Below, piece by piece: positions 13,695-28,746 of a stretch of DNA of 36,307 nt (its first letter is position 1; each line of letters starts with the position of its first letter). The stretch comes from Methylococcaceae bacterium (GTDB lineage: Bacteria; Pseudomonadota; Gammaproteobacteria; Methylococcales; Methylococcaceae): NCBI GenBank assembly GCA_902812445.1, contig CADDZF010000013.1:1-36307 (forward strand), given 5' to 3'. The notes beneath the pieces are model-generated. The model worked only from the letters and a program-made list of their open reading frames with translations. It had not been told where the DNA came from and did not search any database. The position numbers were made by a program, and so were the translations under genes.

Positions 13695-15725
13695 TTATTT
13701 TTGGTTGGATTGCGCGTAGGGCAAAGCTCCAAGTTGCTGTGCCAAATAAGTACTAGTGCTCTGAAGTTGACCGACGAGTCGATCCATTGCGTTGAAACGG
13801 TCAAGCAAGCGCTGCTGGAGTTTTTCCAGACGATCGTCCAGAGCGGTTCTTTCCTGGCCGATTTTGTCGACGCTTTTCTGCAGCCCTTCGGTCCGCGCAT
13901 CGATTGATCCCTCATCCAAAATCCCTTTCAGTACGTTGTCCAGCCGGTCGATAAGGCCGCGGGTAAAACGCACAGTGCCGCGTGAGCCAGTCAAATCATC
14001 GGTCGTTTGGACTTTAAGCCCAGATGCCGCGCCGCTGATTGCGGTCAAATTCCGCCCTTTGCCTTCGCCGGTTTGGCCGTCAATAGTGCCTGCTACATTC
14101 CAACCTACGCTACCGGCCCCTATGCCGAAACCCGCGATGGTGGAGCCGCTACCGATAGCGCCGATTTGAGTGATCTCGACCAGCGACGTATCGCCGTAGC
14201 TTTGTGATCGGATCGTAAACTGGTTTGCGCTACTGTCATATTGAACCGATACGCCGGCCCCAGCGTCTTTCAAGCTAGAGTCGCCGTTAATCCGTGATTG
14301 CAACTCGGCTGCCAACTGCGACGCCGTGTATGCGTTATTTTCTGTCAAAGTGATCTGGCCAGACAAAATGCCGTCGACTTTTATCCTTAGCATATTGTTC
14401 GAGCCATCCACACCTAATGATGGCGACATCGCGCCAGCCAATTCACCATGTGTTGCCGCTGCCGTGATACTCACGTTGTAGGAACCGGCTTGAGTCGCGC
14501 CGGTGTTCTCAATAAATGCAACACCATCATGGGATGGGCTTCCCATGTCCGCGAAGATTGCAATGACATCGTCTCTGTTCTTCTCCAGGGCGGCCTCAAA
14601 CTGGGTGCTGTCAAGTGCGAGCTTGCCGTCTGATTGAGTTTCGATGCCAATCTCGGCGAGCGTGCTAATCGTGCCACCAAGACCTTCTACCTTTTCCCTC
14701 ATGAGAGAGCGCAGCTGAGCCATCGCGCCGCGAACGCTGGCTTCACCCATGAGCGTTCCGCCTTTTTTGGCTTGCGCGTCGTAGCTGGATAGCTTTTTGA
14801 CGGTGTTGATTACTTCGTTAAATTTCTCGACAAATGCTTCTGCGGCCTTAGTAATCTCTCCATTACTTTGCTCGACGCTTAGGCTGACGAGTTTCCCCGG
14901 CTGCGCTTGGGCCAGTATTAAGGTGACGCCTTTCAAGGCACTGGATACCGTATTTGAGGAGTTCGTGATATCGAGCCCATTGATGTTCACGATAGCGTCC
15001 TGAGCGTTCTGCGTCTGGATCATCTGCGTGGCGGAGGCGTTGAACGCGAGCGCCGATAGCCCCGAATCGTCGATATCCGCGCCATCTCCGTCCGCTACAC
15101 TAACCTGCAGGCTATTCCTGGCGCCAGAGTCTTCCGCATTGAGTACCAGCCGGTAGCCCGTGCCATCGTTGATGATCGAGGCCGTGACGCCTGCTTTGGC
15201 GTTATTGATGGCGTCGCGGATACCACCCAAGCTGTTGTTGGAAGAATCGATCGTCAGGCTTAACGTGCCTTTTTCGGCATTCTGGGAAAAAGCGGTATAG
15301 GCGTCGGTGCTACCGTCATAACTCGTTGCACCGAACTTGATAGTCAAGGTGCCAGTACCCACCAAATCGCTCGCGCTGCTGAAGGTCTTGGTCGCCAGCG
15401 CGTGCGGCTGAGCCAGTTGTTTGACATCCAACTGGTAATTGGCCAGATCGGCATTGCCGCTAGCGGAGGCGGACACAATCAAGGGATCGCTCGTGCTCGC
15501 TTCCAGTTTTTCAAACGTGCTGCTGACGCGCAAATCGTCCAAACTGTTCCTGAAATCGCTCAGTGCCCCTTTAACCGTACCCAGTCCTGAAATCTTGGCC
15601 TGCAATTTAGCCTCCTGCCCGTCGAGCCGGGAAGCCTTCGGCGTCCTCTCCGCAGCCACCAGCTTGCTGACCATCGAGTTTATATCCAGGCCCGATCCCA
15701 AGCCTGTTGAGGTAATGACCGCCAT
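13695..15725 (-). CDS. fliD: Flagellar filament cap protein FliD
   Basis: FliD (HAP2) forms the distal cap under which flagellin folds into the filament. The 676-residue product begins MAVITSTGLGSGLDINSMVS, the conserved FliD start (SxGLGSGLDI), with a coiled-coil N-terminal region at about residues 1-100 and the FliD C-terminal domain at about 230-665. It is longer than enteric FliD (about 470 aa). The extra length lies in about residues 390-560, a Gly/Ser/Thr-rich stretch (VAFIENTGATQAGSYNVSIT and so on), which suggests an enlarged surface-exposed domain. The C-terminal coiled coil (LDDRLEKLQQRLLDRFNAMD) is intact. Confidence 0.94.
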   Translation of the reverse strand: MAVITSTGLGSGLDINSMVSKLVAAERTPKASRLDGQEAKLQAKISGLGTVKGALSDFRNSLDDLRVSSTFEKLEASTSDPLIVSASASGNADLANYQLDVKQLAQPHALATKTFSSASDLVGTGTLTIKFGATSYDGSTDAYTAFSQNAEKGTLSLTIDSSNNSLGGIRDAINNAKAGVTASIINDGTGYRLVLNAEDSGARNSLQVSVADGDGADIDDSGLSALAFNASATQMIQTQNAQDAIVNINGLDITNSSNTVSSALKGVTLILAQAQPGKLVSLSVEQSNGEITKAAEAFVEKFNEVINTVKKLSSYDAQAKKGGTLMGEASVRGAMAQLRSLMREKVEGLGGTISTLAEIGIETQSDGKLALDSTQFEAALEKNRDDVIAIFADMGSPSHDGVAFIENTGATQAGSYNVSITAAATHGELAGAMSPSLGVDGSNNMLRIKVDGILSGQITLTENNAYTASQLAAELQSRINGDSSLKDAGAGVSVQYDSSANQFTIRSQSYGDTSLVEITQIGAIGSGSTIAGFGIGAGSVGWNVAGTIDGQTGEGKGRNLTAISGAASGLKVQTTDDLTGSRGTVRFTRGLIDRLDNVLKGILDEGSIDARTEGLQKSVDKIGQERTALDDRLEKLQQRLLDRFNAMDRLVGQLQSTSTYLAQQLGALPYAQSNQK

Positions 15726-15747
15726 GACCTATCCTTTTGTTAAGAAT

Positions 15748-16140
15748 TCAGACTCGTTCTCGCAATAATAAGCCGGAAAGCTCTTCTAGATCCGCGGCCA
15801 GCCTCAATACTGATTCCGCCGGGATCTGGCGGATTACCTCTTGCGTGCTCTGATCGACAACCTGGATCACCGTACGTCCAGTGTCTTCATTCACGCTGAA
15901 ATGCAATTCACGGTGAACCTGCTGCAAAAAATCATTGATATTGCTGACCGCCTGCGCTAAACGGCGTTTCGGTGGGCCGTTTTGAACCACCGTGTAGTCC
16001 TCTTTCAGGACGTTGGCACCGGTTATCTCAAGGGGCTGAAAATCAGTTGTCGCGGACGCAGTTTGTCGGGCCAGATCGGTCTCCTGCGCGTTAGCAAAAC
16101 GGGGGGCATTGAAGTGCGCCAATGCTGACATTGCTTCCAC
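15748..16140 (-). CDS. flaG: FlaG family flagellar protein
   Basis: The product is 130 residues. The C-terminal FlaG domain, at about residues 55-130, is recognisable: an amphipathic helix (AVSNINDFLQQVHRELHFSV) followed by the signature TGRTVIQVVDQSTQEVIRQI-P. FlaG proteins influence filament length in Pseudomonas and Vibrio; the mechanism is not settled. I choose GTG 16140 because AAGGAGA lies seven bases upstream; an ATG at 16131 is possible. It lies between fliC and fliD. Confidence 0.85.
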   Translation of the reverse strand: MEAMSALAHFNAPRFANAQETDLARQTASATTDFQPLEITGANVLKEDYTVVQNGPPKRRLAQAVSNINDFLQQVHRELHFSVNEDTGRTVIQVVDQSTQEVIRQIPAESVLRLAADLEELSGLLLRERV

Positions 16141-16162
16141 TATTGTCTCTCCTTACGTGAGT

Positions 16163-16206
16163 CCAGCGAAGCTGGGAGGGCGGATTACAGACTTGTTCAT
16201 CCGCCC
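16163..16206 (-). terminator. Tandem hairpins between fliC and flaG
   Basis: GGGCGGAT (16178-16185) and ATCCGCCC (16199-16206) form a perfect 8-bp stem with a 13-nt loop. Immediately downstream in the direction of transcription, CCAGC/GCTGG (16163-16175) forms a second 5-bp stem with a 3-nt loop. No T-tract follows, so partial termination or protection of the fliC mRNA 3' end from exonucleases is more likely than full termination. Either would help give high fliC and lower flaG-fliD expression. Confidence 0.5.
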
Positions 16207-16222
16207 GGCCACTTGCGGCTTG

Positions 16223-17725
16223 TTAACCTCTGAGTAGCGATAGCACGTTCTGAGATGATGCATTCGCCTGCGCCAGCATAGCCGTGCCTGCCTGCTGTAG
16301 GATCTGGGTACGGCTCAGCGAAGCCGTTTCCGCTGCAAAATCAGCATCCTGGATGCCGCTGCGCGCGGATGTGACATTCTCCGCGGTAGTCTGCATGTTA
16401 GCTATGGCTGAGCCAAAACGGTTTTGAATCGCACCTAGATCGGCTCGCAGGCCGTCGACGAAGGACAGCGCGCCATCGATGGACTTGATAGCATTGTTGG
16501 CACCCGACTGAGTCCCCACGCTGATACCGCCTACCGCACTCAAGCTGCTCGAATTGGCGCCCGTGCCGCTGAACAACCCGCCCGCTGCACCAGAGGTTAC
16601 CGTGAAGCCGTTTGCAGAGTTGAAGCTTACTGTGCCGCCCACCATGCTCGTATCAGTAGCCGCGCCGCCGGTAAGCACCTGCGCTGCGCCTTTGGTGACA
16701 CCGTTTTGGTCCAGCCCTTGCAGTTCCAAGGTCTTGGTCGCTCCACTGTTGTTGAAGTCCTCTAAGACGACGTCATAACCTTCCGCTTGGGTCAGTGTAA
16801 TAGCCGATCGGTTGGTGGATAGCTCAGCCGTAACACCGGTGCTCGATGCTGACGCATTGATCGCATCGGCCAGCGCTGTGAGGTCGGACGTATTGCTGAC
16901 ATTGGCGGAAATGCCCACCGGCGAGCCGGTATTCGATCCGTAAAGATTGAAGCTTACCGTACCAACGCTGCCCAAATTCTGTAGGCTGGCTTTGGTAATG
17001 GCCGTTGCATCCACGCCGGTCGAGGCGGTAGCGGCGTTTACCGCAGCGGCGGCAGTACGCGCGCTGTCGCCTGCGTTAACGGCGACGGATGAGGTACCAA
17101 GGCTGCCCGTTACGGTCAAATCTTCTGTCGCGAGCACAGGTTGCGTGATAGCGGCTTTATCGGCGACGCCAGCCAGGGCATTGTTCAGGGTTCCGTTTCC
17201 ATCGACATTATTCGCACCGATATTGGTCGCCTTCGCGTTGCCGATGGAGAAGCTGATGGTCTGATCTGCATAGGCGCCGATCTGAAATTTCTGACTGGTG
17301 AAGCTGCCATCCAGCAGATTCTTGCCATTATACTGCGTCTGGTTGGCGATGCGCGTAATGTCCTGTTGTAACTGCGCAACTTCTTTCTGCAGCGAAGCGC
17401 GATCGCCTGCCGAGTTGGTATCATTGGCCGATTGTACCGATAGTTCACGCATACGTTGCAGGGCATCAGTAATTTGGCCTAGCGAGCCTTCTGCGGTCTG
17501 GGCGACGGAGATACCGTCGTTGGCATTGCGGACGGCCTGATTCAAGCCTTTTATCTGTGCTGTCATGCGATCGGAAATGGCGAGCCCGGCGGCATCGTCT
17601 TTCGCGCTATTGATCCGCATACCGGAAGATAGGCGCTCCATCGATGTCTGCATGGATAGCTGCGAACGGTTCAACTGGCGCTGAGCATTGAGGGAAGCGA
17701 TGTTGGTATTAATGACTTGTGGCAT
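16223..17725 (-). CDS. fliC: Flagellin FliC
   Basis: Flagellin is the filament subunit. The 500-residue product has the full D0/D1 N terminus: MPQVINTNIASLNAQRQLNR, then SMERLSSGMRINSAKDDAAG. It also has the full C terminus (ENVTSARSGIQDADFAAETA ... ASSQNVLSLLRG). The middle, about residues 180-400, is rich in Ala, Thr, Ser, Gly and Val and forms the variable surface domains. The ATG at 17725 has AGGAG upstream and a long leader with a stable hairpin. A sigma-28 type promoter lies about 65-95 bp upstream. Only one flagellin gene is seen in this window. Confidence 0.96.
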   Translation of the reverse strand: MPQVINTNIASLNAQRQLNRSQLSMQTSMERLSSGMRINSAKDDAAGLAISDRMTAQIKGLNQAVRNANDGISVAQTAEGSLGQITDALQRMRELSVQSANDTNSAGDRASLQKEVAQLQQDITRIANQTQYNGKNLLDGSFTSQKFQIGAYADQTISFSIGNAKATNIGANNVDGNGTLNNALAGVADKAAITQPVLATEDLTVTGSLGTSSVAVNAGDSARTAAAAVNAATASTGVDATAITKASLQNLGSVGTVSFNLYGSNTGSPVGISANVSNTSDLTALADAINASASSTGVTAELSTNRSAITLTQAEGYDVVLEDFNNSGATKTLELQGLDQNGVTKGAAQVLTGGAATDTSMVGGTVSFNSANGFTVTSGAAGGLFSGTGANSSSLSAVGGISVGTQSGANNAIKSIDGALSFVDGLRADLGAIQNRFGSAIANMQTTAENVTSARSGIQDADFAAETASLSRTQILQQAGTAMLAQANASSQNVLSLLRG

Positions 17726-17752
17726 TGTAATCTCCTATGATTAAGTGGATTG

Positions 17753-17774
17753 GCGTGGGTCTTATGTCCCACGC
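17753..17774 (-). other. Stem-loop in the fliC 5' leader
   Basis: GCGTGGG at 17753-17759 and CCCACGC at 17768-17774 form a perfect 7-bp stem with an 8-nt loop. The stem lies between the predicted sigma-28 promoter and the ribosome site, so it would be in the fliC mRNA leader. 5' hairpins commonly stabilise highly expressed flagellin messages. Confidence 0.5.
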
Positions 17775-17791
17775 TGTAACTCTCGGAATAG

Positions 17792-17818
17792 TTAGCGGTA
17801 TTCAGCTTGGAAACTTGA
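17792..17818 (-). promoter_or_regulatory. Sigma-28 (FliA) type promoter of fliC
   Basis: On the minus strand TCAAGTTT (17818-17811) is followed by 11 nt and then ACCGCTAA (17799-17792). The consensus is TAAAGTTT-N11-GCCGATAA: the -35 matches 7 of 8, the -10 matches 6 of 8 and the spacing is exact. It is correctly placed upstream of fliC. The second sigma-28 type element in this window precedes flgK. Confidence 0.75.
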
Positions 17819-17948
17819 ATGGCTATTGACCCAGGAAACAGGCTCTTCGGAGTGGTCCGCTCCGGTGTCCTGTAGCACGAAGAAATCGTCCAAGAAATGG
17901 CTTAAGCCATCCAAATCTTATGCGTCGGTTCGGATTATCAAGCGTTTT

Positions 17949-20804
17949 ATGAACGACCTTACTGCTTCGTTGCCCGATGAACTAAAAGCACCCATCGATC
18001 TCGTGTGGAACGGTTTCAGCGAGCGACTCGCAGCGCTGGGAGTTGAATTCTGCCCAGACGAGAGCCTGCTGAAATCGTTAGCCAAGGCGTGGGCAGCCAG
18101 TGGTTTTGTGATTAATTGGTCCCTGCGTCATCCAGCGATGTTCGCCAACTTGATGAGTTCTGGCGTTTGGCGGCAGGCGTCGGGCGCTACAAGCGGGTAT
18201 CGGACACGTTTACAGGAATGCCTTCGGGCCGTCGATCTGGAAGCTGGCTTAATGGCGGCGCTGCGCCAATTTAGGAATCTCGAAATGGTGCGGATTGCCA
18301 TGCGCGATATCACCGGCTGGGCGAATTTGGAAGAAACGTTGGAGGATTTATCGGCGCTGGCGGAAGTTTGCATTCAGGAGAGCCTGGCCTTTCTTTATCA
18401 AAATGCCTGCAGGCTCAGAGGCACTCCAATCACCAAAGAGGGAAGGCCACAGCAACTGGTCGTATTGGCCATGGGCAAACTGGGAGCATCCGAACTCAAT
18501 TTTTCCTCAGATATCGATCTCATCTTCGCTTATGCCGAGGACGGCATTTTGCCGGATAAGCGGGGAACGAGTTATGCGGAGTTTTTTACCCGGCTGGGCC
18601 AAAACTTAGTAAAAGTACTCGACGCCGTTACGGAAGACGGTTTCGTATTCCGCGTGGATACTCGGCTCAGGCCGTTCGGTGAGAGTGGTCCTTTGGTGAT
18701 GAGCATTCATGCCATGGAAACGTATTATCAGGGCCAGGCTCGGGAATGGGAGCGGTACGCCATGGTTAAAGTCCGCCCGGTAGCGGGAGATCTTCAGTCG
18801 GGCAGGCGCCTGCAGACGCTTTTGCGGCCTTTCGTGTACCGGCGTTACCTGGATTACCGGGCTTTCGGCGAGCTACGTGATCTCAAGCAAAAGATCACAC
18901 AGGAATTGCGCAGGAAAGACCGGCTGGAAAACATCAAGCTAGGTCCTGGCGGGATACGCGAAATCGAATTTATCGGCCAGGCATTTCAGCTGATTCGCGG
19001 CGGCCGGGATAAGCGGCTGCAGGAGCGGAGCATCTTGCGCGTGCTGTCCGTGCTCGGCGAATCGGCCTATCTGCCGGTAGCGATTGTGAACAAGCTTGCC
19101 GAAGCCTACCGCTTCCTCCGCACAGTGGAAAACAGGTTACAGCAATATGCCGACAAGCAGACTCATGATCTCCCTCAAGAACCGCTGCAGCGGTTCTGCC
19201 TGGCATTTTCCCTGGGATTTTCCGACTGGAACTCCTTCAAGCGGCGCCTAGATACACTGCGCGAACGAGTTCACGCGGTATTCGAGCAGGTCGTTGAAGC
19301 GCCCCACACGGACGATCACGACGCGTGGCTCAAGCTGGTAGGAGCGAGCCAAATCGACAGCGAACGTCTGTTGCAAACCTTGCAGGCCATAGGCTATCGC
19401 GATCCGTACCATGCGCTGAGTTTGCTTAAGGCGTTTCAGAGCTCCTACTCGCTGCAACAGCTCACGGCTAAAGGCGTGGCGGAGTTGAACCGGCTCATGC
19501 CAATGTTGCTGCGGGCGGTGGCCAAGACGGAAGAGGCTGAAGTCGTCCTTGAAAGAATACTGGCGTTGCTCGAATCGATTGCCAGCCGCAACGTTTATTT
19601 TACGCTGCTGGTAGAAAATCCTTTGGCGCTTTCACAAATGGTCAAGCTGGCCGCCGCCAGTTCCTGGATCACGCACTACATTGCCCGTTTCCCGCTGTTG
19701 CTGGATGGACTACTCGATCCGCGTGAACTGTATACGCCCCTTCATAAAGCTGAACTGGCCAGAGAACTGGCCGGGCAACTCGAAGCCGTTGGCGATGATG
19801 ATCTTGAGCAGATGATGAGCGCATTGCGCCATTTCAAGCAGACCAATGTCCTGCGCGTGGCTGCAGCGGACATTATGGGTGCCATAGCGATTGGCGTCGT
19901 GAGCGACTATCTGACCGATATCGCAGAAGTGGTTATCGATGCTGTCCTGACCCAGGCATGGCGCCTGTTAGCCAGATGGGGCTATCCCCCTGGGGCAAGC
20001 TTCGATGAAATCAAACAATTCGGTATTATCGCCTACGGCAAATTGGGCGGGTTCGAATTGGGCTACGGCTCTGATCTTGACCTGGTATTTTTGTACAATG
20101 GCGACGATGCCATGACGAGCGGCGAAAAGCCTATGCCGTGTGCTAAGTTCCACGCCCGGCTAGCGCAGAAAATCGTCAATATGCTCACGACGCAGATGCT
20201 TTCAGGCAAGCTTTATGAAGTGGATTTACGCCTGAGACCGAGCGGCAATTCCGGCTTGCTGGTCAGCGGTATCGATGCTTATGCGCGTTACCAGATGACC
20301 AGCGCCTGGACCTGGGAACAGCAAGCGCTGATCAAAGCGCGTTTTGTCGCCGGTGATCCCGCAATCGCGAAGCGCTTCGCGGAGGTTCGGGTTGAATCGC
20401 TGAGAAGACCACGTGACCCGGCAACCCTGCTCAATGACGTCATAGGCATGCGCGAGAAAATGCGGGCCACTCTGATGGTGAAAGACCCTACCGTGTTCGA
20501 TTTAAAACAAGGTATGGGCGGTATGGCGGACATCGAGTTTATAGTACAATTCGGGACTTTAGCGGGAGCGCGCGATCACCCGGAATTATTGGCCTGGACC
20601 AGCACCATAGGCCTTCTGAAGACCCTCAAAGCGATCGGTTTTCTGTGCCCAGACGATTTTGCGACGTTAGAGCAAGCCTACTATCTGTATCGAGAACGCG
20701 TACACCGCTCGGCCCTCAAGGAAACACAGGCGGTCGTGCCGGTTACTGAATTTATGGAATTGCGCGAGCGGGTTCGTCAAATCTGGCAAACCATCATGGC
20801 GTAG
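17949..20804 (+). CDS. glnE: Bifunctional glutamine synthetase adenylyltransferase/deadenylase GlnE
   Basis: GlnE adds and removes AMP on glutamine synthetase (GlnA) in response to PII and so tunes nitrogen assimilation. The product is about 951 residues (E. coli: 946). It has two nucleotidyltransferase domains. The N-terminal one has GKLGASELNFSSDIDLIFAY and the C-terminal one has GKLGGFELGYGSDLDLVFLY, each with the D-x-D metal-binding motif. Regulatory helical regions follow each (for example GPGGIREIEFIGQAFQLIRG). The ATG at 17949 (MNDLTASLPDELK) gives the normal length. The frame is open further upstream to a TTG at 17826, but that stretch overlaps the fliC promoter side and looks unconserved. 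The ribosome site at 17949 is poor. Confidence 0.95.
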   Translation: MNDLTASLPDELKAPIDLVWNGFSERLAALGVEFCPDESLLKSLAKAWAASGFVINWSLRHPAMFANLMSSGVWRQASGATSGYRTRLQECLRAVDLEAGLMAALRQFRNLEMVRIAMRDITGWANLEETLEDLSALAEVCIQESLAFLYQNACRLRGTPITKEGRPQQLVVLAMGKLGASELNFSSDIDLIFAYAEDGILPDKRGTSYAEFFTRLGQNLVKVLDAVTEDGFVFRVDTRLRPFGESGPLVMSIHAMETYYQGQAREWERYAMVKVRPVAGDLQSGRRLQTLLRPFVYRRYLDYRAFGELRDLKQKITQELRRKDRLENIKLGPGGIREIEFIGQAFQLIRGGRDKRLQERSILRVLSVLGESAYLPVAIVNKLAEAYRFLRTVENRLQQYADKQTHDLPQEPLQRFCLAFSLGFSDWNSFKRRLDTLRERVHAVFEQVVEAPHTDDHDAWLKLVGASQIDSERLLQTLQAIGYRDPYHALSLLKAFQSSYSLQQLTAKGVAELNRLMPMLLRAVAKTEEAEVVLERILALLESIASRNVYFTLLVENPLALSQMVKLAAASSWITHYIARFPLLLDGLLDPRELYTPLHKAELARELAGQLEAVGDDDLEQMMSALRHFKQTNVLRVAAADIMGAIAIGVVSDYLTDIAEVVIDAVLTQAWRLLARWGYPPGASFDEIKQFGIIAYGKLGGFELGYGSDLDLVFLYNGDDAMTSGEKPMPCAKFHARLAQKIVNMLTTQMLSGKLYEVDLRLRPSGNSGLLVSGIDAYARYQMTSAWTWEQQALIKARFVAGDPAIAKRFAEVRVESLRRPRDPATLLNDVIGMREKMRATLMVKDPTVFDLKQGMGGMADIEFIVQFGTLAGARDHPELLAWTSTIGLLKTLKAIGFLCPDDFATLEQAYYLYRERVHRSALKETQAVVPVTEFMELRERVRQIWQTIMA

Positions 20805-20871: not shown

Positions 20872-21795
20872 ATGGCGATGGACGACAGAAATGGCGTTAT
20901 CTGGCTAGATGGTGAATGGCTGCCCTGGCGGGATGCCAAGGTTCACGTGTTGACCCATACGCTACATTACGGCTGCGGCGTATTCGAAGGGCTGCGGGCT
21001 TATCAGGCGAAACAAGGCACAGCGATCTTTCGTTTGCGCGATCATACCGACCGCCTGTGCCGTTCTGCCCATATCATGAAAATGAACGTGCCGTTTGACA
21101 AGGCTATACTCGATCGGGCCCAGCGCGAGGCGGTGAGTAAAAATAACTTGGCCAGCGCCTACATTCGTCCCATGTGCTTTTATGGCTCCGAGGGCATGGG
21201 ATTGCACGCGGCCGGGTTGAAGGTTCACGTCATGATAGCGGCCTGGGAGTGGGGCAGTTATCTCGGCGCCGAAAATATGGAACGCGGCATCCGGGTTCAT
21301 ACGTCTTCTTTCACGCGTAACCACGTCAATAGTCTAATGTCCAAGGCCAAAGCCAACGGCAACTATGTGAATTCCATTCTGGCGGTACAAGAAGCCGTCG
21401 AAGCGGGGTTTGACGAAGCTCTGTTGCTAGATCATCAAGGTTATGTCGCGGAAGGCAGCGGCGAGAACATCTTCATCGTCCGCCGTGGTAATCTCTACAC
21501 GCCGGACTTGACGTCCGTTCTCGAAGGAATTACCCGGGAAACCATACTTACCCTTGCCCAGGAGGTGGGTCTACGGGTAGTGGAAAAGCGCATCACACGC
21601 GATGAGGTCTACGTTGCTGACGAGGCGTTCTTCACCGGTACCGCGGCGGAAGTCACCCCGATACGCGAACTGGACGGGCGCACGGTCGGCCAAGGCCGTC
21701 GTGGACCAATTACGGAAACGCTACAGGCGCTCTATTTTGACCACGTATACGGCCGCCGGACCGATCATGCCGACTGGTTGAGCTACGTCGGCTAG
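20872..21795 (+). CDS. ilvE: Branched-chain amino acid aminotransferase IlvE
   Basis: IlvE is a PLP enzyme that carries out the last step of Val, Leu and Ile synthesis, and the first of their breakdown, using glutamate/2-oxoglutarate. The 307-residue product matches the family: LHYGCGVFEGLRAY near residues 31-44, NSLMSKAKANGNYVNSILAV with the expected Schiff-base lysine near residue 160, and EGSGENIFIV near 200. The adjacent start codons ATG 20872 and ATG 20878 are both plausible. It follows glnE by 67 bp; glnE-ilvE adjacency is common in gammaproteobacteria. Its stop is only 20 bp from the convergent end of the sterol operon. Confidence 0.95.
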   Translation: MAMDDRNGVIWLDGEWLPWRDAKVHVLTHTLHYGCGVFEGLRAYQAKQGTAIFRLRDHTDRLCRSAHIMKMNVPFDKAILDRAQREAVSKNNLASAYIRPMCFYGSEGMGLHAAGLKVHVMIAAWEWGSYLGAENMERGIRVHTSSFTRNHVNSLMSKAKANGNYVNSILAVQEAVEAGFDEALLLDHQGYVAEGSGENIFIVRRGNLYTPDLTSVLEGITRETILTLAQEVGLRVVEKRITRDEVYVADEAFFTGTAAEVTPIRELDGRTVGQGRRGPITETLQALYFDHVYGRRTDHADWLSYVG

Positions 21796-21815
21796 CGACC
21801 CATTGCACTGGCGTT

Positions 21816-23417
21816 TCAGTCGAGCGTCTTCAGTTTTCTCATTTCCGCAGGCGAAGTTCTGCCCCTGTGAGACACTTTGTCGTAAACCTCATCGAAGGCT
21901 TGCTTGCAGAATGGCAACTGCGCCCGCAGCCGGTCATAGTCCCGATGATCGAACATGGTTCTGAACTGCTCGCGCGTCATCTTGGTTTCCGCATACAACG
22001 CCTGATAGCCGTGATGCTCGATCACAAATGCCTCGAGCGCGGGCAGGGCGGACCGATTGTCGAAGTTCTCCTTGGCCGGCGTTCCGTACGCGCCGATATC
22101 GACATAAAGCTCGTCCGCCTCACCCTCCTCGTTGCGGAACGGGTGAATAAATCCGAGGCGCCGGTCGTTGTCATGAATCGCCAGGGGACAAAGCCACAAA
22201 GGGTAGAGCTGGTAATGAGCGTCGAGATACTGCAGGGATTTCTTGAGATAGCGGAGCGGTACGAGCATGTCCTGAATGACGTGATGCTTTTCCCTGAGTC
22301 GCCGGGTGGTTTCGGTTTCGGTATATTTCAGCAATTGAATGCTCGGCGGTAAGGCCCAGCCCAGCAGCCACCGGAAGACGGGATGGTTGCCGAAAGCGAT
22401 GATGTCTTCCATCGCCCAAAAATAGCTTCGCGTGTGTCGATGAAAGTAATCCCTCAAGGGTATATATTCGATCCCGTGCTGTCGCTTGTGCAGATAAGTT
22501 TGCACATGCTGGTAAAACCAGGGTTTGGGCCATCGGCCAAGAGGATTTAGCATCCCGTCCGAACCTAGCTCATCGGTCAACTGACCGCACATGATCACGG
22601 CCGCATGGCAACGGTAGAGGATGCCTTCCACAAAGTCGTTTTTCTCCCCATCCCTGCTTTCCGTTACAAAGAAAGCGATCGCCTCATCCAAGGTATAGAG
22701 CGGCTGATAGCGGACCTTGACATATTTCCGCGCCGGGATGATCTTCAGTGTGGCCGCCACCAGGAAGCCTAATGTGCCGTGGCTCCACGGAAGCAGATAA
22801 TAGAGATCGACATTCTCGGAACGGCTGCAGCGCAGCAGCTTGCCCTCGGCAGTCACGACATCAAAAGACTCGCAAATATGCTGGAACAGCCCGAATTTGT
22901 GGCTGCTGGTCTCCACGCCGAAACCCATGATCAATCCGCCGACGGTCAAGTCATCCAGCTCGGGAACGACGGCGAGCATCCAACCCCGGGACACCAGCGC
23001 GCGGGAGATCTGGCCCATGGTGGCAAGGGGTTCTACCTTCACGACTCGCCGATCTTCATCAATTTGAAGGATGTCATGCATGCCGATATGGACATGCTGA
23101 TGAGACAACTTGTATTTGGGCACCAGTTCGCTCATGGATTTCCAGCCGGATCGGGCGGTGCATAGCTTTTTTTTGCACCCCTCTTTTCGCCATTCCTCAA
23201 TTTGCCGGATCACTCGCTGCACGCGCAGGTCGTGTCGGGCTGGCGCGCTGGTAAGATAGAAGAGGATTCGATTACGGATCGTTGCATAGGCCTCATACAG
23301 CAAGGAGGCCGGCAACAGAACGACCGTCGCGAACAGGCCGCGATAGTGGGTAAGTAGGTACTCGAAGACCGAGCAATCTCCCGTGCGTTCTGCAACGGAT
23401 GCAAACTTCCTCTTCAT
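21816..23417 (-). CDS. DHCR24-family Delta-24 sterol reductase (FAD-dependent)
   Basis: This 533-residue protein resembles eukaryotic DHCR24 (Seladin-1), which reduces the C-24 double bond of the sterol side chain with FAD and NADPH at membranes. I see an N-terminal hydrophobic segment at about residues 27-45 (GLFATVVLLPASLLYEAY). An FAD-binding region at about 90-210 contains the stretch PELDDLTVGGLIMGFG at 152-167, followed by SSHKFGLFQHICESFD. C-terminal segments typical of DHCR24 include EYIPLRDYFHRHTRSYFW, HHVIQDMLVPLRYLK and EADELYVDIGAYG. The ATG at 23417 overlaps the upstream Rieske gene's stop as ATGA; the open frame continues upstream to 23480, but only inside that gene. It is the last gene of the sterol unit. 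The activity is inferred from family and context. Confidence 0.9.
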   Translation of the reverse strand: MKRKFASVAERTGDCSVFEYLLTHYRGLFATVVLLPASLLYEAYATIRNRILFYLTSAPARHDLRVQRVIRQIEEWRKEGCKKKLCTARSGWKSMSELVPKYKLSHQHVHIGMHDILQIDEDRRVVKVEPLATMGQISRALVSRGWMLAVVPELDDLTVGGLIMGFGVETSSHKFGLFQHICESFDVVTAEGKLLRCSRSENVDLYYLLPWSHGTLGFLVAATLKIIPARKYVKVRYQPLYTLDEAIAFFVTESRDGEKNDFVEGILYRCHAAVIMCGQLTDELGSDGMLNPLGRWPKPWFYQHVQTYLHKRQHGIEYIPLRDYFHRHTRSYFWAMEDIIAFGNHPVFRWLLGWALPPSIQLLKYTETETTRRLREKHHVIQDMLVPLRYLKKSLQYLDAHYQLYPLWLCPLAIHDNDRRLGFIHPFRNEEGEADELYVDIGAYGTPAKENFDNRSALPALEAFVIEHHGYQALYAETKMTREQFRTMFDHRDYDRLRAQLPFCKQAFDEVYDKVSHRGRTSPAEMRKLKTLD

Positions 23418-24535
23418 TCGCCGCGCTGAGGAGGACTCTGTTCGATCCCGGCGCCGCTTCGCGCCAGATAGTCTTCCCATTTGCGGGCGGTTAGCTGTTG
23501 TAGTAGCGGCACCGTCGGGTTAAGCTCGATGGGAGGCGCGTCCCAGTGTTGCTCATAGCCTTGCTGCTCGGCCTCCAGGGCCATGCCGTCCTGAGCAAGC
23601 AGCGGCCTGAAGAGCAAGGGTTTGGCGATGCGCAGCGCCATCTCCTGCAGCCAACGCGGCATTTTCAATGGTGTCAGAGGAATCTTCATGGCATCGAAGT
23701 AGAAAACAAAGAAGACTCGAGTCTGCCGCAGATCCACGGGCAGGACGAAGCACCAATGTTTGATCTTGCCGCCTGTGTCGGACCACTGATAGGGATATTC
23801 GTAGCAGAGTTCGATGGAACGGGTGTTTACCCGCCGGCGATCCACAAAGATTCCGGAGATGCGGCCTTGGGCCATGTGAGTGTCATAGGTCAATGTCACC
23901 CGCCGTTCATCGGCCTGATAGTGGCGTAGTTTGGCGTCGGTGAAAGGCCGGTACTTGCGGTGCAGAAAGGCGTGGGCAAAGTCGCAGATGTTGTCGATCA
24001 CCATAGAATGGTGAGTCTGCCACGTAAAATCCATCATCATGTGCGCCCATGGACTGTCTCCTTCTAGCTCGGGTATGGTGGGTAACAGCTGGTGCTCGGC
24101 TTTCGTGGGATCGCCGGGAAATAACCAGATGAGGCCATAGCGTACCCGTACCGGATAGACGCGTAACCGCTTCTTGAGCAGTGGCTTGCCGAAGCTGTCG
24201 TGAGAGTAATCGACCAGTCGGCCGTCACGGTCGAAGGTCCATCCGTGGTATGCACAGCGAAGGTGGCAACGCTGGACGACGCCATGGCTGAGTTTGAGTT
24301 GGCGATGTGGACAGCGATTCTGGACGGCGGCGAGCACTCCGTCCTCACCCCGATAAAGGGCGATCGAGGTGTTCCAGAACGTCACCTCTGTAATGTGTCG
24401 TTTCTTGACAGCACGAGCGTACTCCACGGCATACCAGCGATCGGGGTCCAGCCCGGCAGCGCGCGCTTTTTGGCGCGTGTTCTCCGCCTGTTGAAAACTC
24501 GGTGGCCGCCGTGATGATGCTCCCTCGACGCTCAT
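23414..24535 (-). CDS. sdmA: Rieske-type sterol C-4 demethylase oxygenase, SdmA-like
   Basis: The 373-residue product is a Rieske non-heme iron oxygenase. The [2Fe-2S] motif is CPH...CAYH (about residues 72-93, with the CPHRQLKLSH and LRCAYHGWTF parts intact). The mononuclear iron motif is in NICDFAHAFLHRKY near residues 180-193 (Asp and two His). In Methylococcus capsulatus a Rieske oxygenase named SdmA oxidises a C-4 methyl of sterols and is paired with a dehydrogenase, SdmB. The ATG at 24535 overlaps the SdmB stop as ATGA, which settles the start; the frame remains open to 24772 only because of overlap with the upstream gene. No ferredoxin or reductase gene is adjacent, so electrons must come from elsewhere. 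The assignment as SdmA rests on family, partner gene and the DHCR24 neighbour. Confidence 0.8.
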   Translation of the reverse strand: MSVEGASSRRPPSFQQAENTRQKARAAGLDPDRWYAVEYARAVKKRHITEVTFWNTSIALYRGEDGVLAAVQNRCPHRQLKLSHGVVQRCHLRCAYHGWTFDRDGRLVDYSHDSFGKPLLKKRLRVYPVRVRYGLIWLFPGDPTKAEHQLLPTIPELEGDSPWAHMMMDFTWQTHHSMVIDNICDFAHAFLHRKYRPFTDAKLRHYQADERRVTLTYDTHMAQGRISGIFVDRRRVNTRSIELCYEYPYQWSDTGGKIKHWCFVLPVDLRQTRVFFVFYFDAMKIPLTPLKMPRWLQEMALRIAKPLLFRPLLAQDGMALEAEQQGYEQHWDAPPIELNPTVPLLQQLTARKWEDYLARSGAGIEQSPPQRGE

Positions 24536-25596
24536 ACCTCTCCCGTCTTCCGGGTGCCTAAGCCCCACGTCGGCGATGTTCGTGCGGAGGGCCGGATCAC
24601 ACCGCGGCGCACGAAATCTCCATAGGCGTCCGTGATCGCCTGCATGATACTGCTTGGTCGATAGCCAAGTTCTTGCTGAGCCTTGCCATGATCGGCCCGA
24701 CGCTGCATCTGTAGCAACCGCACCGCAGCCGGCGTGAAATGGCGGGGTGCGTTCGGGAAAGCGCGATACCAAGTTCTGTCGGCAATTTCCGCCAGCACCG
24801 CCACTAGCGCGGGCGGCAGGCGCACTCGAGGCGGCGGACGTCCGCTGATTTCCCCGAACATTGCCATCAGCTCGTCCACGCTGGCGTAGGCAGTGCTGAA
24901 TAGGTATTTCTGTCCCGAGCGGCCCTGTCTCATGGCGAGGACATGGCCTTCGGCGATGTCGTGGCTGGAAACGAATGCAAAACCGCCAGGGATGTAGGCG
25001 CGTAGGCGCCCGTGCGCATAGTCAATAAGGACGCGGCCCATGCGAGACGGCCCGTAATCGTGAGGGCCAATGATGGCGCAGGAGGTGGCAACGACGACGT
25101 TGAGTCCATTGGCATGAGCGCGCAGACACTCGTGTTCCACCAGATGCTTGGAAACGGCATAGGGCAGATGACGTTCGAAGGGGTAAAACGGCATGCCTTC
25201 GTGACTGTGATGATCGGGATCATATCCAGTGGCGCTCAGCGATCCCGATACCACGATCTTATCGATCGCTAAACGCGCTGCCGCATCCAACAGGTGAATG
25301 GTGCCTCGAACGTTGGTATCGAAAATCTGGCGCTTGTGCGCCGCATTGCCTTCAATGGTCGAAACTAGCGCGGCGCAGTGATAGATACGGTTGGTGCCGC
25401 GCACGATGCTGTCCACCGATTCCTTATCGCGTAGATCAGCATAAGCGCGCTCTACAGCGAGACCGTCCAGGGCACCGTTGTCGCGGCCCGGACGCATCAT
25501 GACGCGTACATCCTCGCCATCGGCCAGCAAGCGGCGCACCAGATTGGCGCCCAGGTGACCGGTCGCCCCTGTGACCAGCACTTTCCGGCGGCTCAT
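24532..25596 (-). CDS. sdmB: NAD(P)-dependent 3-beta-hydroxysteroid dehydrogenase/decarboxylase, SdmB-like
   Basis: This is an extended SDR (NAD-epimerase/3-beta-HSD family), about 354 residues. The Rossmann motif is VLVTGATGHLGANLVRRL at about residues 5-22, and the catalytic Tyr/Lys pair is in LPYAVSKHLVE (Y-x-x-x-K) near residues 140-150, preceded by VVSGSLSATGYDP. In the bacterial C-4 demethylation pathway SdmB oxidises the 3-OH, allows loss of the C-4 carboxylate made by SdmA, and reduces the ketone. HpnA-like hopanoid SDRs are the main alternative, but the SdmA and DHCR24 neighbours favour sterols. The ATG at 25596 lies 4 bp after the thiSG stop; an in-frame ATG at 25614 overlapping thiSG is possible. 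The ribosome site is weak, so coupling to thiSG is likely. Confidence 0.78.
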   Translation of the reverse strand: MSRRKVLVTGATGHLGANLVRRLLADGEDVRVMMRPGRDNGALDGLAVERAYADLRDKESVDSIVRGTNRIYHCAALVSTIEGNAAHKRQIFDTNVRGTIHLLDAAARLAIDKIVVSGSLSATGYDPDHHSHEGMPFYPFERHLPYAVSKHLVEHECLRAHANGLNVVVATSCAIIGPHDYGPSRMGRVLIDYAHGRLRAYIPGGFAFVSSHDIAEGHVLAMRQGRSGQKYLFSTAYASVDELMAMFGEISGRPPPRVRLPPALVAVLAEIADRTWYRAFPNAPRHFTPAAVRLLQMQRRADHGKAQQELGYRPSSIMQAITDAYGDFVRRGVIRPSARTSPTWGLGTRKTGEV

Positions 25597-25600
25597 GTAA

Positions 25601-26578
25601 TTAGAAAAAGACATCCTGGATCGGCGAGGATGCGGAGGCGTAGCGTTTGCGTGGCATGCGCCCGGCGAGGAACGCCTCACGTCCGGCTTCGATGCCTTTT
25701 TTCATCGCAGACGCCATTAAAATTGGGTTTTGCGCCTCCGCTATCGCGGTATTCATCAGCACGCCATCACAGCCCAGCTCCATGGCAATCGCGGCATCCG
25801 ACGCCGTGCCTACACCAGCGTCGATAAGTATCGGTACGCTGGCGTTTTCGATGATGGTGAGGATGTTGTAAGGATTGCGAATGCCTAATCCGGAGCCGAT
25901 GGGGGCGGCCAGCGGCATGACGGCGATACAACCAATCGCTTCCAGGCGCTTGGCTACGATCGGATCATCATTGGTATACACCATGACATCAAAGCCTTCT
26001 CGGACTAGAATTTCCGCCGCCTGCAGGGTTGCCGTGACATCAGGAAACAGCGTTTTGGCGTCGCCCAGGACTTCCAGTTTGACCAGACGATGATCGCCTA
26101 GGAGTTCGCGCGCCAGTCGGCACGTGCGTATGGCATCGTCTGAGGTATAACAGCCCGCTGTATTGGGTAGCACGGTGTACCGCTGAGGAGATAGAACGTC
26201 GAGCAGGTTCGGCCGGTTGGGATCCTGGCCTATATTGGTACGCCGTATGGCGACGGTTACGATCTCCGCGCCGCTTGCCTCTATCGCTTGTCGAGTCTGC
26301 TCCAGATCCTTGTACTTGCCGGTGCCGACCAGCAGACGAGACTGATAGATTTTGCCGGCGATGACTAGCGGATCAGGCCGCCCGCCGCCGATAGCATGAA
26401 CGATTTCGACATGATCATGCTGCTTCAACGTTAAGGCGCCATATTGACTGTAAGGTACGATTTCGCGGTTCAGTTCCACCGCAATGCGTTTGTCGGTCAA
26501 TTGCAAGTGGTCGACCAATTGGGCCAGCGTGGTGTTTTCTGCCACGCCTCTGATCTCACCGTTAAGATATATTTCCAT
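25601..26578 (-). CDS. thiSG: Fused sulfur carrier ThiS / thiazole synthase ThiG
   Basis: The 325-residue product joins two thiamine-pathway proteins in one frame. Residues 1-66 are ThiS ([20 protein letters not shown] ... [10 protein letters not shown]), ending in the Gly-Gly that normally forms the free C-terminal thiocarboxylate. From residue 67 the chain runs straight into ThiG ([20 protein letters not shown]). The ThiG part keeps the KLEVLGD segment with the expected Schiff-base lysine, [14 protein letters not shown], and the phosphate-binding region ([20 protein letters not shown]). ThiG makes the thiazole ring from DXP, dehydroglycine and ThiS sulfur. No stop or start codon lies at the junction. 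The ATG at 26578 has AAGGG nine bases upstream; an ATG at 26587 would lack a ribosome site. Confidence 0.93.
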
Positions 26579-26621
26579 ATTCAGCATCCCTTGCCCGGAT
26601 CGAATGGCGGTCGCGCTTTCA

Positions 26622-27749
26622 TCAATGTGGACAAGCCGGGCTCTCCCGGGCATGGCGACGTCGTTTCGCCACGGCGGGGGCGAGCTGATTCAGCAGTTCT
26701 TCGCTCGCTTCCCACCCAATGCAGGCGTCCGTGATGCTCTGGCCGTAGATCAATTGTTCGCCCGAAACCCGCTTTTGCTGGCCCGGCTTGAGATGGCTCT
26801 CAATCATGACGCCGATGATGGCGTAATTGCCGTCTGCCAGCTGCTCTGCCACGTTCTTGCCTACCAACAGTTGGCGCTCATACTGTTTAGAGCTGTTGGC
26901 GTGACTAAAGTCGATCATCACATTGGCGGGCAGGCCGGCCGCCTTCAGTGCCTTGATCGCCGCGGCTACGCTTTCGGCATCGTAGTTCGGCGTCTGACCG
27001 CCGCGCAGAATGATATGGCTGTCGATATTCCCGGTGGTGGAAAAAATAGCCGAATGGCCGCCTTTCGTCACCGAGAGAAAGTGGTGCGGGCGGCTCGCAG
27101 CAGCGATCGCATCAATGGCTGTCTTCACCGTTCCGTCCGTCGCATTTTTAAAACCGACCGGACAGGATAAGCCAGATGCCAGCTCGCGATGAACCTGGCT
27201 TTCCGTCGTACGCGCGCCGATCGCACCCCAGGCAATGAGATCTGATACATATTGCGGCGTGATCAGATCGAGATATTCCGTCGCTGCCGGCACGCCCATC
27301 TGATTCAAATCCAGCAGGAGTTTACGCGCCAGATGCAGGCCTTTGTTGATGTTGAAACTCTGATCCAGATCGGGGTCATTGATCAAGCCCTTCCAGCCGA
27401 CCGTCGTGCGTGGTTTTTCAAAATAAACGCGCATGACGATCAGCAGCTCCTGGCTGAGGGCCGATTTTACCGCTAACAAGCGTTCGGCGTATTCGAGCGC
27501 AGCTACGGGATCGTGAATCGAACAAGGGCCGATCACGACCAAAAGGCGATCATCTAGGCCTGCCAGTATTCGATGAATGTCGTGGCGCGCCTGCAGAGTC
27601 GTCATGGCAGCCCTTTGCGTAATCGGGTATTTTCTGTGCACCTGGATGGGCGCGATTACGTCTTTCACTTCGCAGATACGTAAATCATCAGTGTTATAGG
27701 TATCCTCCGTGATGGTCACGACTTCTGATGTGTTGTTTGGATTTTTCAT
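26622..27749 (-). CDS. aroG: 3-deoxy-D-arabino-heptulosonate-7-phosphate (DAHP) synthase, class I
   Basis: This enzyme condenses phosphoenolpyruvate and erythrose-4-phosphate in the first step of the shikimate pathway. The 375-residue product is close to E. coli AroG throughout: [14 protein letters not shown] near the N terminus, [20 protein letters not shown] near residue 70, [40 protein letters not shown] and [18 protein letters not shown] cannot tell from sequence alone which aromatic amino acid inhibits it. The C-terminal tail ([14 protein letters not shown]) extends a few residues beyond the usual end. It is the first gene of the minus-strand unit, and thiSG begins 43 bp downstream. A TAGAAT box lies at 27802-27797 but has no good -35. 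Confidence 0.94.
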
Positions 27750-28076
27750 AGCCTAGATAACCGAACAGGTACGTAAGGGATATAGAGAACAACAACATTC
27801 TAGCGCGCAAAGTGAAGGCTTCGCTACCCATTCCACCGAAACGGCCGTAAGCGCGCTGTTAAAGTTATCCGGGCACGATGCCCTTTTTGCGGCGGCGCCC
27901 CGGGGTTTTGCCAATCACGACAGCGAATTGGGCTTAATTTCATTGAACTTATCGAGGCTGCCGACGAGCACAATGAATGATGACCGTGATCGGAGCCATC
28001 GAAACGATCGATAGGAATCCTGCTTGATATCCCGCAAAAAAATAGCAAAAGCGCGTCATATAAAGCAGGAGATAGC

Positions 28077-28103
28077 ATGGTTCGCCTCACGCAAATGTCA
28101 TGA
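28077..28103 (+). CDS. Possible nine-codon small ORF / leader peptide
   Basis: The frame ATG...TGA encodes MVRLTQMS and is preceded by AGGAGA (28067-28072) four bases before the ATG, one of the better ribosome sites in the window. It lies upstream of the promoter-like boxes of the heme-domain gene. It has no run of a single amino acid that would mark a classic attenuator. It may be chance. Confidence 0.15.
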   Translation: MVRLTQMS

Positions 28104-28131
28104 AGCCTTAAATTAGCTTTGCTAAGTTGGT

Positions 28132-28173
28132 GCAATGTCAATCATTGCTTGACTTAAGTGGTGCATTTATCAT
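28132..28173 (+). promoter_or_regulatory. Promoter-like boxes overlapped by a Fur-like palindrome
   Basis: TTGCTT (28145-28150), a 17-nt spacer and TATCAT (28168-28173) form a plausible sigma-70 promoter for the gene at 28273. The interrupted palindrome GCAATGTCAATCATTGC (28132-28148) overlaps the -35. Centred against the 19-bp Fur consensus GATAATGATAATCATTATC it matches 11 positions, including AATCATT. Fur repression would suit a heme/iron gene, but the match is moderate. Confidence 0.35.
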
Positions 28174-28272
28174 GAACCAAATCGCCGCAGGCCATTTTGT
28201 ATAAAGTGGCGTGAAAGCTGTATGCGTTTTGAGCGCTAGGGTCGATTGTTTACTTAACCAAGAGGCAGGATT

Positions 28273-28746
28273 GTGGCAGCGCATCTGATTGCACAACATT
28301 CAGCACCGGACGAGCACGCCCCAGCTTCGTTGGGGGCCGATCATAAAACAGCCGTCCAGCGCCCGCCCAGAGCGACTCACTCTGCATGGACTTGCCAGGT
28401 AACGTTAGACGCTTTTCAGGAGCGCATGCGACTCATTGCCGAGCTTCGCGTGCCTTATATTTGCTACGTCGCTGGTGTTTCGGGCGGGCAAGCAGCGAGT
28501 GGCCTAATGAATGGCTTTGACAGTCAAGCAGGATGGCTCAAACTTCAAGGCAAGGATTTCAAGTTTTACCTTCCAGAACACGGCATTGGGTCCATTTGGG
28601 CGGTCAGCCGGTTTCTTGCCCATGTCACCACGGTCTCGCTGGAACTGTTCACCCGATCCGGCGCTCTTATTATGCGTTTTTCGGGCATGCCGACGAAACT
28701 CGAAAATGCCGTATGGCGCGACATTATCGGCACGTTGCTGCTATAG
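28273..28746 (+). CDS. ChuX/HutX/HemS-like heme-domain protein
   Basis: The product is 157 residues from GTG 28273 (upstream AGAGGCAGG). The first 40 residues look disordered. Residues 75-155 resemble one repeat of the HemS/ChuX/HutX heme-utilisation fold: a W-x-K/L-x-x-G-x-x-F-x-x-x-L strand pattern (GWLKLQGKDFKFYLPEHGIG), then IWAVSRF, then TVSLELFTRSGALIMRFSG, and a C-terminal helix with W-R-x-I-x-G-T-L. These proteins bind or deliver heme in the cytoplasm after TonB-dependent uptake. tonB-exbB-exbD lie 3 kb away. Similarity is at the pattern level only. No membrane segment or signal peptide is seen. Confidence 0.5.
   Translation: MAAHLIAQHSAPDEHAPASLGADHKTAVQRPPRATHSAWTCQVTLDAFQERMRLIAELRVPYICYVAGVSGGQAASGLMNGFDSQAGWLKLQGKDFKFYLPEHGIGSIWAVSRFLAHVTTVSLELFTRSGALIMRFSGMPTKLENAVWRDIIGTLLL

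Follow-up and report, generated by a model that had tools for sequence, protein, structure and literature searches.

Three minus-strand genes in a 36,307-nucleotide stretch of DNA from a Methylococcaceae bacterium (GCA_902812445.1, contig CADDZF010000013.1; the whole stretch is called the window below) very probably encode late tailoring steps of sterol synthesis in a methanotroph that makes sterols, namely C-4 demethylation and side-chain reduction (estimated probability about 0.88). Direct reading of the open reading frames and their junctions placed the genes at 21816-25596, in the order short-chain dehydrogenase/reductase (SDR), Rieske oxygenase, FAD reductase. The first encodes an SdmB-like SDR of the 3beta-hydroxysterol dehydrogenase/decarboxylase type (24532-25596, ATG at 25596, stop at 24532, 354 aa; another in-frame ATG is found at 25614), the second an SdmA-like Rieske oxygenase (23414-24535, ATG at 24535, stop at 23414, 373 aa), and the third a DHCR24-like FAD-dependent sterol C-24 reductase (21816-23417, ATG at 23417, stop at 21816, 533 aa). 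A previous interpretation, made without database searches (the sequence-only reading), had described exact ATGA overlaps between these genes. Both four-base overlaps were confirmed: the sdmB stop and the sdmA start share gaggtATGAgcgtc at 24535-24532, and the sdmA stop and the dhcr24 start share ggcgaATGAagagg at 23417-23414. The overlaps suggest that the three genes are translated as one unit.

The Rieske protein matched the Pfam models Rieske (E 6e-20) and VanA_C, and the SDR matched Epimerase (E 2e-32) and 3Beta_HSD (E 8e-16), all above the curated cut-offs. The FAD protein was recognized by FAD_binding_4 (PF01565, the PCMH/VAO FAD-binding domain; E 2e-14, 54 bits with a cut-off of 26.4). 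Alignment revealed in the SdmA-like protein, whose gene is present in a single copy in the genome, the Rieske motif CPH...CAYH (CxH...CxxH) and the iron-ligand motif DFAHAFLH (DxxHxxxH), and in the SdmB-like SDR the NAD(P)-binding motif TGATGHLG (TGxxGxLG) and Y-x3-K; the same motifs occur in SdmA and SdmB of the Methylococcus capsulatus type. Homologues 62-77% identical to all three proteins were found in dozens of other methanotroph genomes. The features by which SdmAB is recognized in the broad sense (PMC10202945), namely a Rieske domain with mononuclear iron ligands, an adjacent SDR partner, and a genome encoding oxidosqualene cyclase (OSC) and squalene epoxidase (SQE), were all found.

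The two latter enzymes are encoded outside the window, as the sequence-only reading had noted when it assigned substrate supply to another part of the genome and made its proposal dependent on the presence of an OSC. The genome to which the window belongs (3.21 Mb, 260 contigs, 99.94% complete) contains two cyclases. The one on contig C89 is an OSC: it scored 942 bits with TIGR03463 (2,3-oxidosqualene cyclase, cut-off 851), stayed below the hopene-cyclase cut-off (TIGR01507, 261 vs 431 bits) and has the DCTAE motif in its translation. The second is of the squalene-hopene type, as judged by a much higher Pfam score and low similarity to OSC. Adjoining the OSC on C89 is an SQE gene (PF08491, above cut-off), and the P450 encoded there, here called CYP51, shares synteny with P450s of other methanotroph sterol clusters and is 60-78% identical to them. 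Between the P450 and the OSC lies a small gene (1718-2374 of C89, locus L152) whose product is 60-77% conserved in methanotroph sterol loci and gave no match in Pfam or NCBIfam. An NTF2-superfamily protein co-localized with sterol genes was described in 2026 as the reductase 8,14-Bsr (PMC13277303); by its position and this description of the superfamily, the small protein is likely to be an NTF2-type 8,14-sterol reductase. Every step towards a methanotroph-type sterol has a candidate gene in this genome.

The genomic context of the homologues points in the same direction. In Methylococcaceae isolate 8 (L005), genes for SQE, OSC, an NTF2-type protein, CYP51, DHCR24, SdmB and SdmA are contained within 11 kb, and locus L230 has the order CYP51-NTF2-OSC-SQE-SdmB-SdmA-BstABC-x-DHCR24. 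Downstream of the SdmAB pair, bstABC genes are also present in L009 and L012 and in many sister-family (f8) genomes. SdmA of the same type was located at most about 8 kb from an OSC in records of Rokubacteria, Elusimicrobia, Nitrospira, Gammaproteobacteria, Planctomycetota, Myxococcota and Rivularia. Among the 38 genomes of the family, SdmA was present in 29 of the 33 with an OSC and in one of the five without (Fisher p 0.004, which is merely indicative because the genomes are related); the sole OSC-negative genome with SdmA is 72% complete. The distribution of DHCR24 was identical (29/33 and 1/5). The OSC in the genome and the homologous sdmB-sdmA pairs in the sterol clusters of relatives thus support the sterol-tailoring role proposed before.

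In the pathway that these genes would constitute, SQE, OSC, the CYP51-like P450 and the putative NTF2-type 8,14-reductase encoded on C89 would supply the substrate. SdmA would carry one C-4 methyl through successive oxidations towards the carboxylate; SdmB would oxidize C-3, permit decarboxylation and then reduce the 3-ketone back, and the DHCR24-type flavoprotein would reduce the side-chain double bond. The end product would be a 4-monomethyl, side-chain-saturated sterol, for example 4-methylcholest-8(14)-en-3-ol. The identity of the genes, the conserved catalytic motifs, the complete set of pathway genes, synteny and co-occurrence were observed directly, and the reactions, their order and the number of methyls removed are predicted from them.

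Several observations weigh against this interpretation. The window proteins scored far below the cut-offs (600 bits in both cases) of the curated NCBIfam equivalog models of the M. capsulatus type, SdmA with 386 bits (NF052579) and SdmB with 297 bits (NF052578). Neither a reductase nor a ferredoxin was identified as a partner of SdmA, and the FAD protein matched only generic FAD models in Pfam and NCBIfam. It was also considered that the pair might act on another triterpenoid such as a hopanoid, or might consist of an HpnA-like sugar epimerase and an unrelated oxygenase. The SDR does match HpnA in NCBIfam (218 bits), and the genome encodes a squalene-hopene cyclase. However, the SdmB model scored 79 bits higher (297 vs 218), the pair stands beside OSC, SQE and CYP51 genes in many phyla, its presence tracks that of OSC, and sterol demethylation by related pairs was demonstrated experimentally (PMC10202945). 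The HpnA or hopanoid explanation was dropped on score and genomic context, and we regard it as highly improbable.

Assignment of the third gene to C-24 reduction is based on gene order. The gene of L230 that occupies the position of MetluDRAFT_1263, listed as the DHCR24 homologue of Methylobacter luteus (PMC4919349), encodes a protein 69% identical to the FAD protein of the window, and the DHCR24 label follows from this match, not from comparison with eukaryotic sequences; a PDB search with the FAD protein returned no close relative, and DHCR24 was absent from the matches. Like the other methanotroph DHCR24 homologues, the protein belongs to FAD_binding_4 and co-occurs with OSC, and its homologues in 29 other genomes of the family are 62-72% identical to it. 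The activity of these homologues is known solely through correlation with lipid profiles: C-24 side chains are saturated in methanotrophs possessing the gene, M. luteus included, and unsaturated in Methylosarcina lacus, which lacks it (PMC4919349). The C-24 reductase role suggested by the sequence-only reading is not new, having been proposed before for the DHCR24 homologues of methanotrophs (PMC4919349). Some myxobacteria use a GGR-type C-24 reductase, Bsr, which is unrelated to the DHCR24 type (PMC12004948).

The SdmAB pair of the window is not the pair known from M. capsulatus. The two have in common the adjacent Rieske oxygenase and SDR genes, the catalytic motifs and a sterol-producing methanotroph host, but the M. 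capsulatus-type proteins are just 42-48% (SdmA) and 40-42% (SdmB) identical to those of the window, their genes are arranged sdmA-sdmB instead of sdmB-sdmA, and the window pair has no adjoining bstABC. An SdmA-like protein was detected in 60 of 251 Methylococcales genomes. Twenty have the M. capsulatus type, with 19 proteins exceeding the 600-bit cut-off and one divided between contigs, and 40 have the window type, one of these being truncated at a contig end. Both types are represented in each of two families, and none of the 60 genomes carried both. In comparisons with the family genomes of either set, the window SdmA was on average 71.5% identical to the window type and 44.9% to the M. capsulatus type, and SdmB 71.3 and 41.0%; DHCR24 (66.6 vs 63.4%) and OSC (65.6 vs 64.7%) showed hardly any split. 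Among these four proteins the split is restricted to the C-4 demethylase pair, as expected if one pair had replaced the other. In phylogenetic trees the window type formed a single clade (100/100) that grouped with cyanobacterial SdmAB (91/85 for SdmA, 99/96 for concatenated SdmA and SdmB), and the M. capsulatus type was a separate, long-branched clade. Orthology with M. capsulatus SdmAB was rejected on the basis of score, identity, gene order and tree. Of the resemblance to M. capsulatus that the sequence-only reading had drawn, the sterol-tailoring role stood, but the proteins form a clade of their own, whose closest neighbour is cyanobacterial SdmAB.

Replacement of one pair by the other is favoured but not proven, because the approximately unbiased (AU) test did not reject trees uniting both methanotroph types in one clade (p 0.115 for SdmA, p 0.257 for SdmA plus SdmB). 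With the long branch of the M. capsulatus type, this result would also suit a single vertical lineage containing one fast-evolving branch, in place of two acquisitions. We consider such a history possible but rather doubtful, since the best trees place the window type with cyanobacteria (99/96 in the concatenated analysis), the gene order differs, the two types are mutually exclusive in families and even in a single genus, and OSC and DHCR24 from the same genomes do not show the split. The nearest relatives, from records of the Rivularia/Calothrix group that may not include Calothrix NIES-4105 itself, are 57-60% identical and likewise have sdmB upstream of sdmA in a sterol cluster; unlike in the window, a CYP51 gene lies between the two and OSC and SQE genes lie alongside. 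The Methylobacter-type cluster (L230, genome G869) encodes the same types of SdmA (71%), SdmB (76%) and DHCR24 (69%) as the window. The window genome differs from it in that the pathway is distributed over two loci, BstA was not found, DHCR24 is coupled directly to the sdmBA operon, and the OSC is a different one (36% identical).

The OSCs of sister family f8 (L009, L230, L231, L236-L238, L240-L242) were 33-36% identical to the OSC of the window genome (L152), and those of family f1 60-71%, indicating that methanotroph OSCs, too, fall into two lineages.

According to a published statement, bst genes are present in all other methanotrophs with sdmA and sdmB (PMC10942540). Of the three Bst proteins, the genome-wide transporter search covered BstA, which is the sterol RND (resistance-nodulation-division) transporter. 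With a BstA query of the M. capsulatus type, matches at E <= 1e-100 were obtained in 27 of the 38 family genomes, but none in the window genome (G000), G004, G005, G007 and G008 (family f1), all of which carry SdmA, OSC and DHCR24. Genus g5 is represented here by its three genomes with SdmA (G004, G005 and G007), and the loci of G005 are the same as those of Methylocaldum sp. 14B. The absence of BstA matches from these SdmAB-bearing methanotrophs disagrees with the published association.

C-4 demethylation in E. coli was shown for the SdmAB pairs of Calothrix and M. capsulatus and for E. salina SdmA together with SdmC. The Calothrix pair takes off both C-4 methyls and that of M. capsulatus one, and in E. 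salina a third protein is required for removal of both (PMC10202945). The window type is likely to remove one. This is favoured because the gene order of G869 (CYP51, NTF2-type gene, OSC, SQE, sdmB, sdmA, bstA, bstB, bstC, one reverse gene, DHCR24) fits that of M. luteus and M. whittenburyi, which are reported to produce 4-monomethyl sterols but none of the 4-desmethyl kind (PMC4919349). The published locus numbers of CYP51, OSC, SQE and DHCR24 are 1253, 1255, 1256 and 1263 in M. luteus and 3865, 3867, 3868 and 3875 in M. whittenburyi (PMC4919349), and the fit is exact (CYP51, +2 OSC, +3 SQE, +10 DHCR24), the link being made through gene numbering and not through named sequences. Loci of the M. 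capsulatus type in the family of G869 have another arrangement.

Removal of both methyls, as by Calothrix SdmAB (PMC10202945), would yield a 4-desmethyl sterol. It would accord with the mean identities of the window SdmA/SdmB (58/63% to the cyanobacterial proteins vs 40/41% to the M. capsulatus type), with the grouping in the trees described above, and with the failure to find BstA in the window genome and Methylocaldum, while BstABC prefer C-4-methylated sterols (PMC10942540). Full demethylation, suggested by the sister position to Calothrix-like SdmAB, was downgraded after the order in G869 had matched the locus numbers of M. luteus; moreover, no methanotroph is entered with a 4-desmethyl sterol in the table of PMC4919349. 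We consider it unlikely that the window lineage, perhaps together with Methylocaldum, removes both methyls and makes 4-desmethyl, side-chain-saturated sterols without using the known C-4-methylsterol transporter; if it did, it would be a methanotroph making cholestane-type skeletons. Removal of a single methyl remains the preferred interpretation.

The sterol genes of the window are preceded on the same strand by a gene (25601-26653) coding for a 350-aa fusion of ThiS and ThiG (Pfam ThiS and ThiG), in close translational proximity to the sterol genes, and by a DAHP synthase gene (26622-27749, Pfam DAHP_synth_1). Since the thiSG stop lies only 4 nt before the sdmB ATG at 25596 and thiSG overlaps the DAHP synthase gene by 32 nt, the operon probably comprises five genes, the DAHP synthase gene being first, followed by thiSG, sdmB, sdmA and dhcr24. 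Although probably part of the same operon, thiSG stands outside sterol chemistry, and in this genome the sterol genes seem to be carried along by a housekeeping operon. A scan of 21600-28400 for promoters and terminators gave no more matches than shuffled sequences and no promoter candidate on the minus strand. In none of the other fetched loci did thiSG adjoin sdmB. The four-base overlaps are also peculiar to the window genome: distances between alignment ends in relatives were 35-305 nt for SdmB-SdmA and, where the genes are adjacent, 54-140 nt for SdmA-DHCR24. Whereas sdmB and sdmA are adjacent in all window-type loci, the position of DHCR24 varies (downstream and co-directional, divergent upstream, several kb off, or elsewhere in the genome).

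The searches also detected SdmA-like proteins in other settings. An extra, remoter SdmA-like Rieske protein scoring about 160 bits is encoded by g5 genomes, that of Methylocaldum sp. 14B among them (G004:C1:819629-820606, G005:C23:63268-64251 and G007:C1:788860-789825). A remoter paralogue (about 210-260 bits, 31-33% identical) was present in about one fifth of the searched cyanobacterial genomes, e.g. in L177-L186. In the cyanobacterial locus L256 (G233:C6), sdmB (15605-16593) and the OSC gene (17551-19448) each aligned in two pieces, which suggests frameshifts arising from decay or assembly error. The actinomycete Lentzea sp. NBRC 105346 (L022) has an SdmB-SdmA pair 56/53% identical to that of the window and no OSC within 10 kb; the pair may modify sterols that are taken up. 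On plasmids the SdmA search found just generic Rieske oxygenases, the best with about 34% identity.

The chemistry of the three-gene module is already known, and in this respect the locus is an ordinary though informative case of bacterial sterol tailoring in a methanotroph. 4-Methyl sterols and their fossil steranes serve as markers of aerobic methanotrophs, and bacteria and eukaryotes employ unrelated enzymes for C-4 demethylation. It was less expected that SdmAB falls into two mutually exclusive lineages, that the window locus belongs to the one left unnamed by curated models, and that BstA was not found. The lack of BstA in several SdmAB-bearing methanotrophs casts doubt on the view that Bst transport always accompanies C-4 demethylation. 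Curated models leave the majority SdmAB type of the Methylococcales without a name, and with two exclusive lineages in one order, of which the M. capsulatus pair is the minority, findings made in M. capsulatus may not apply to the other methanotrophs.

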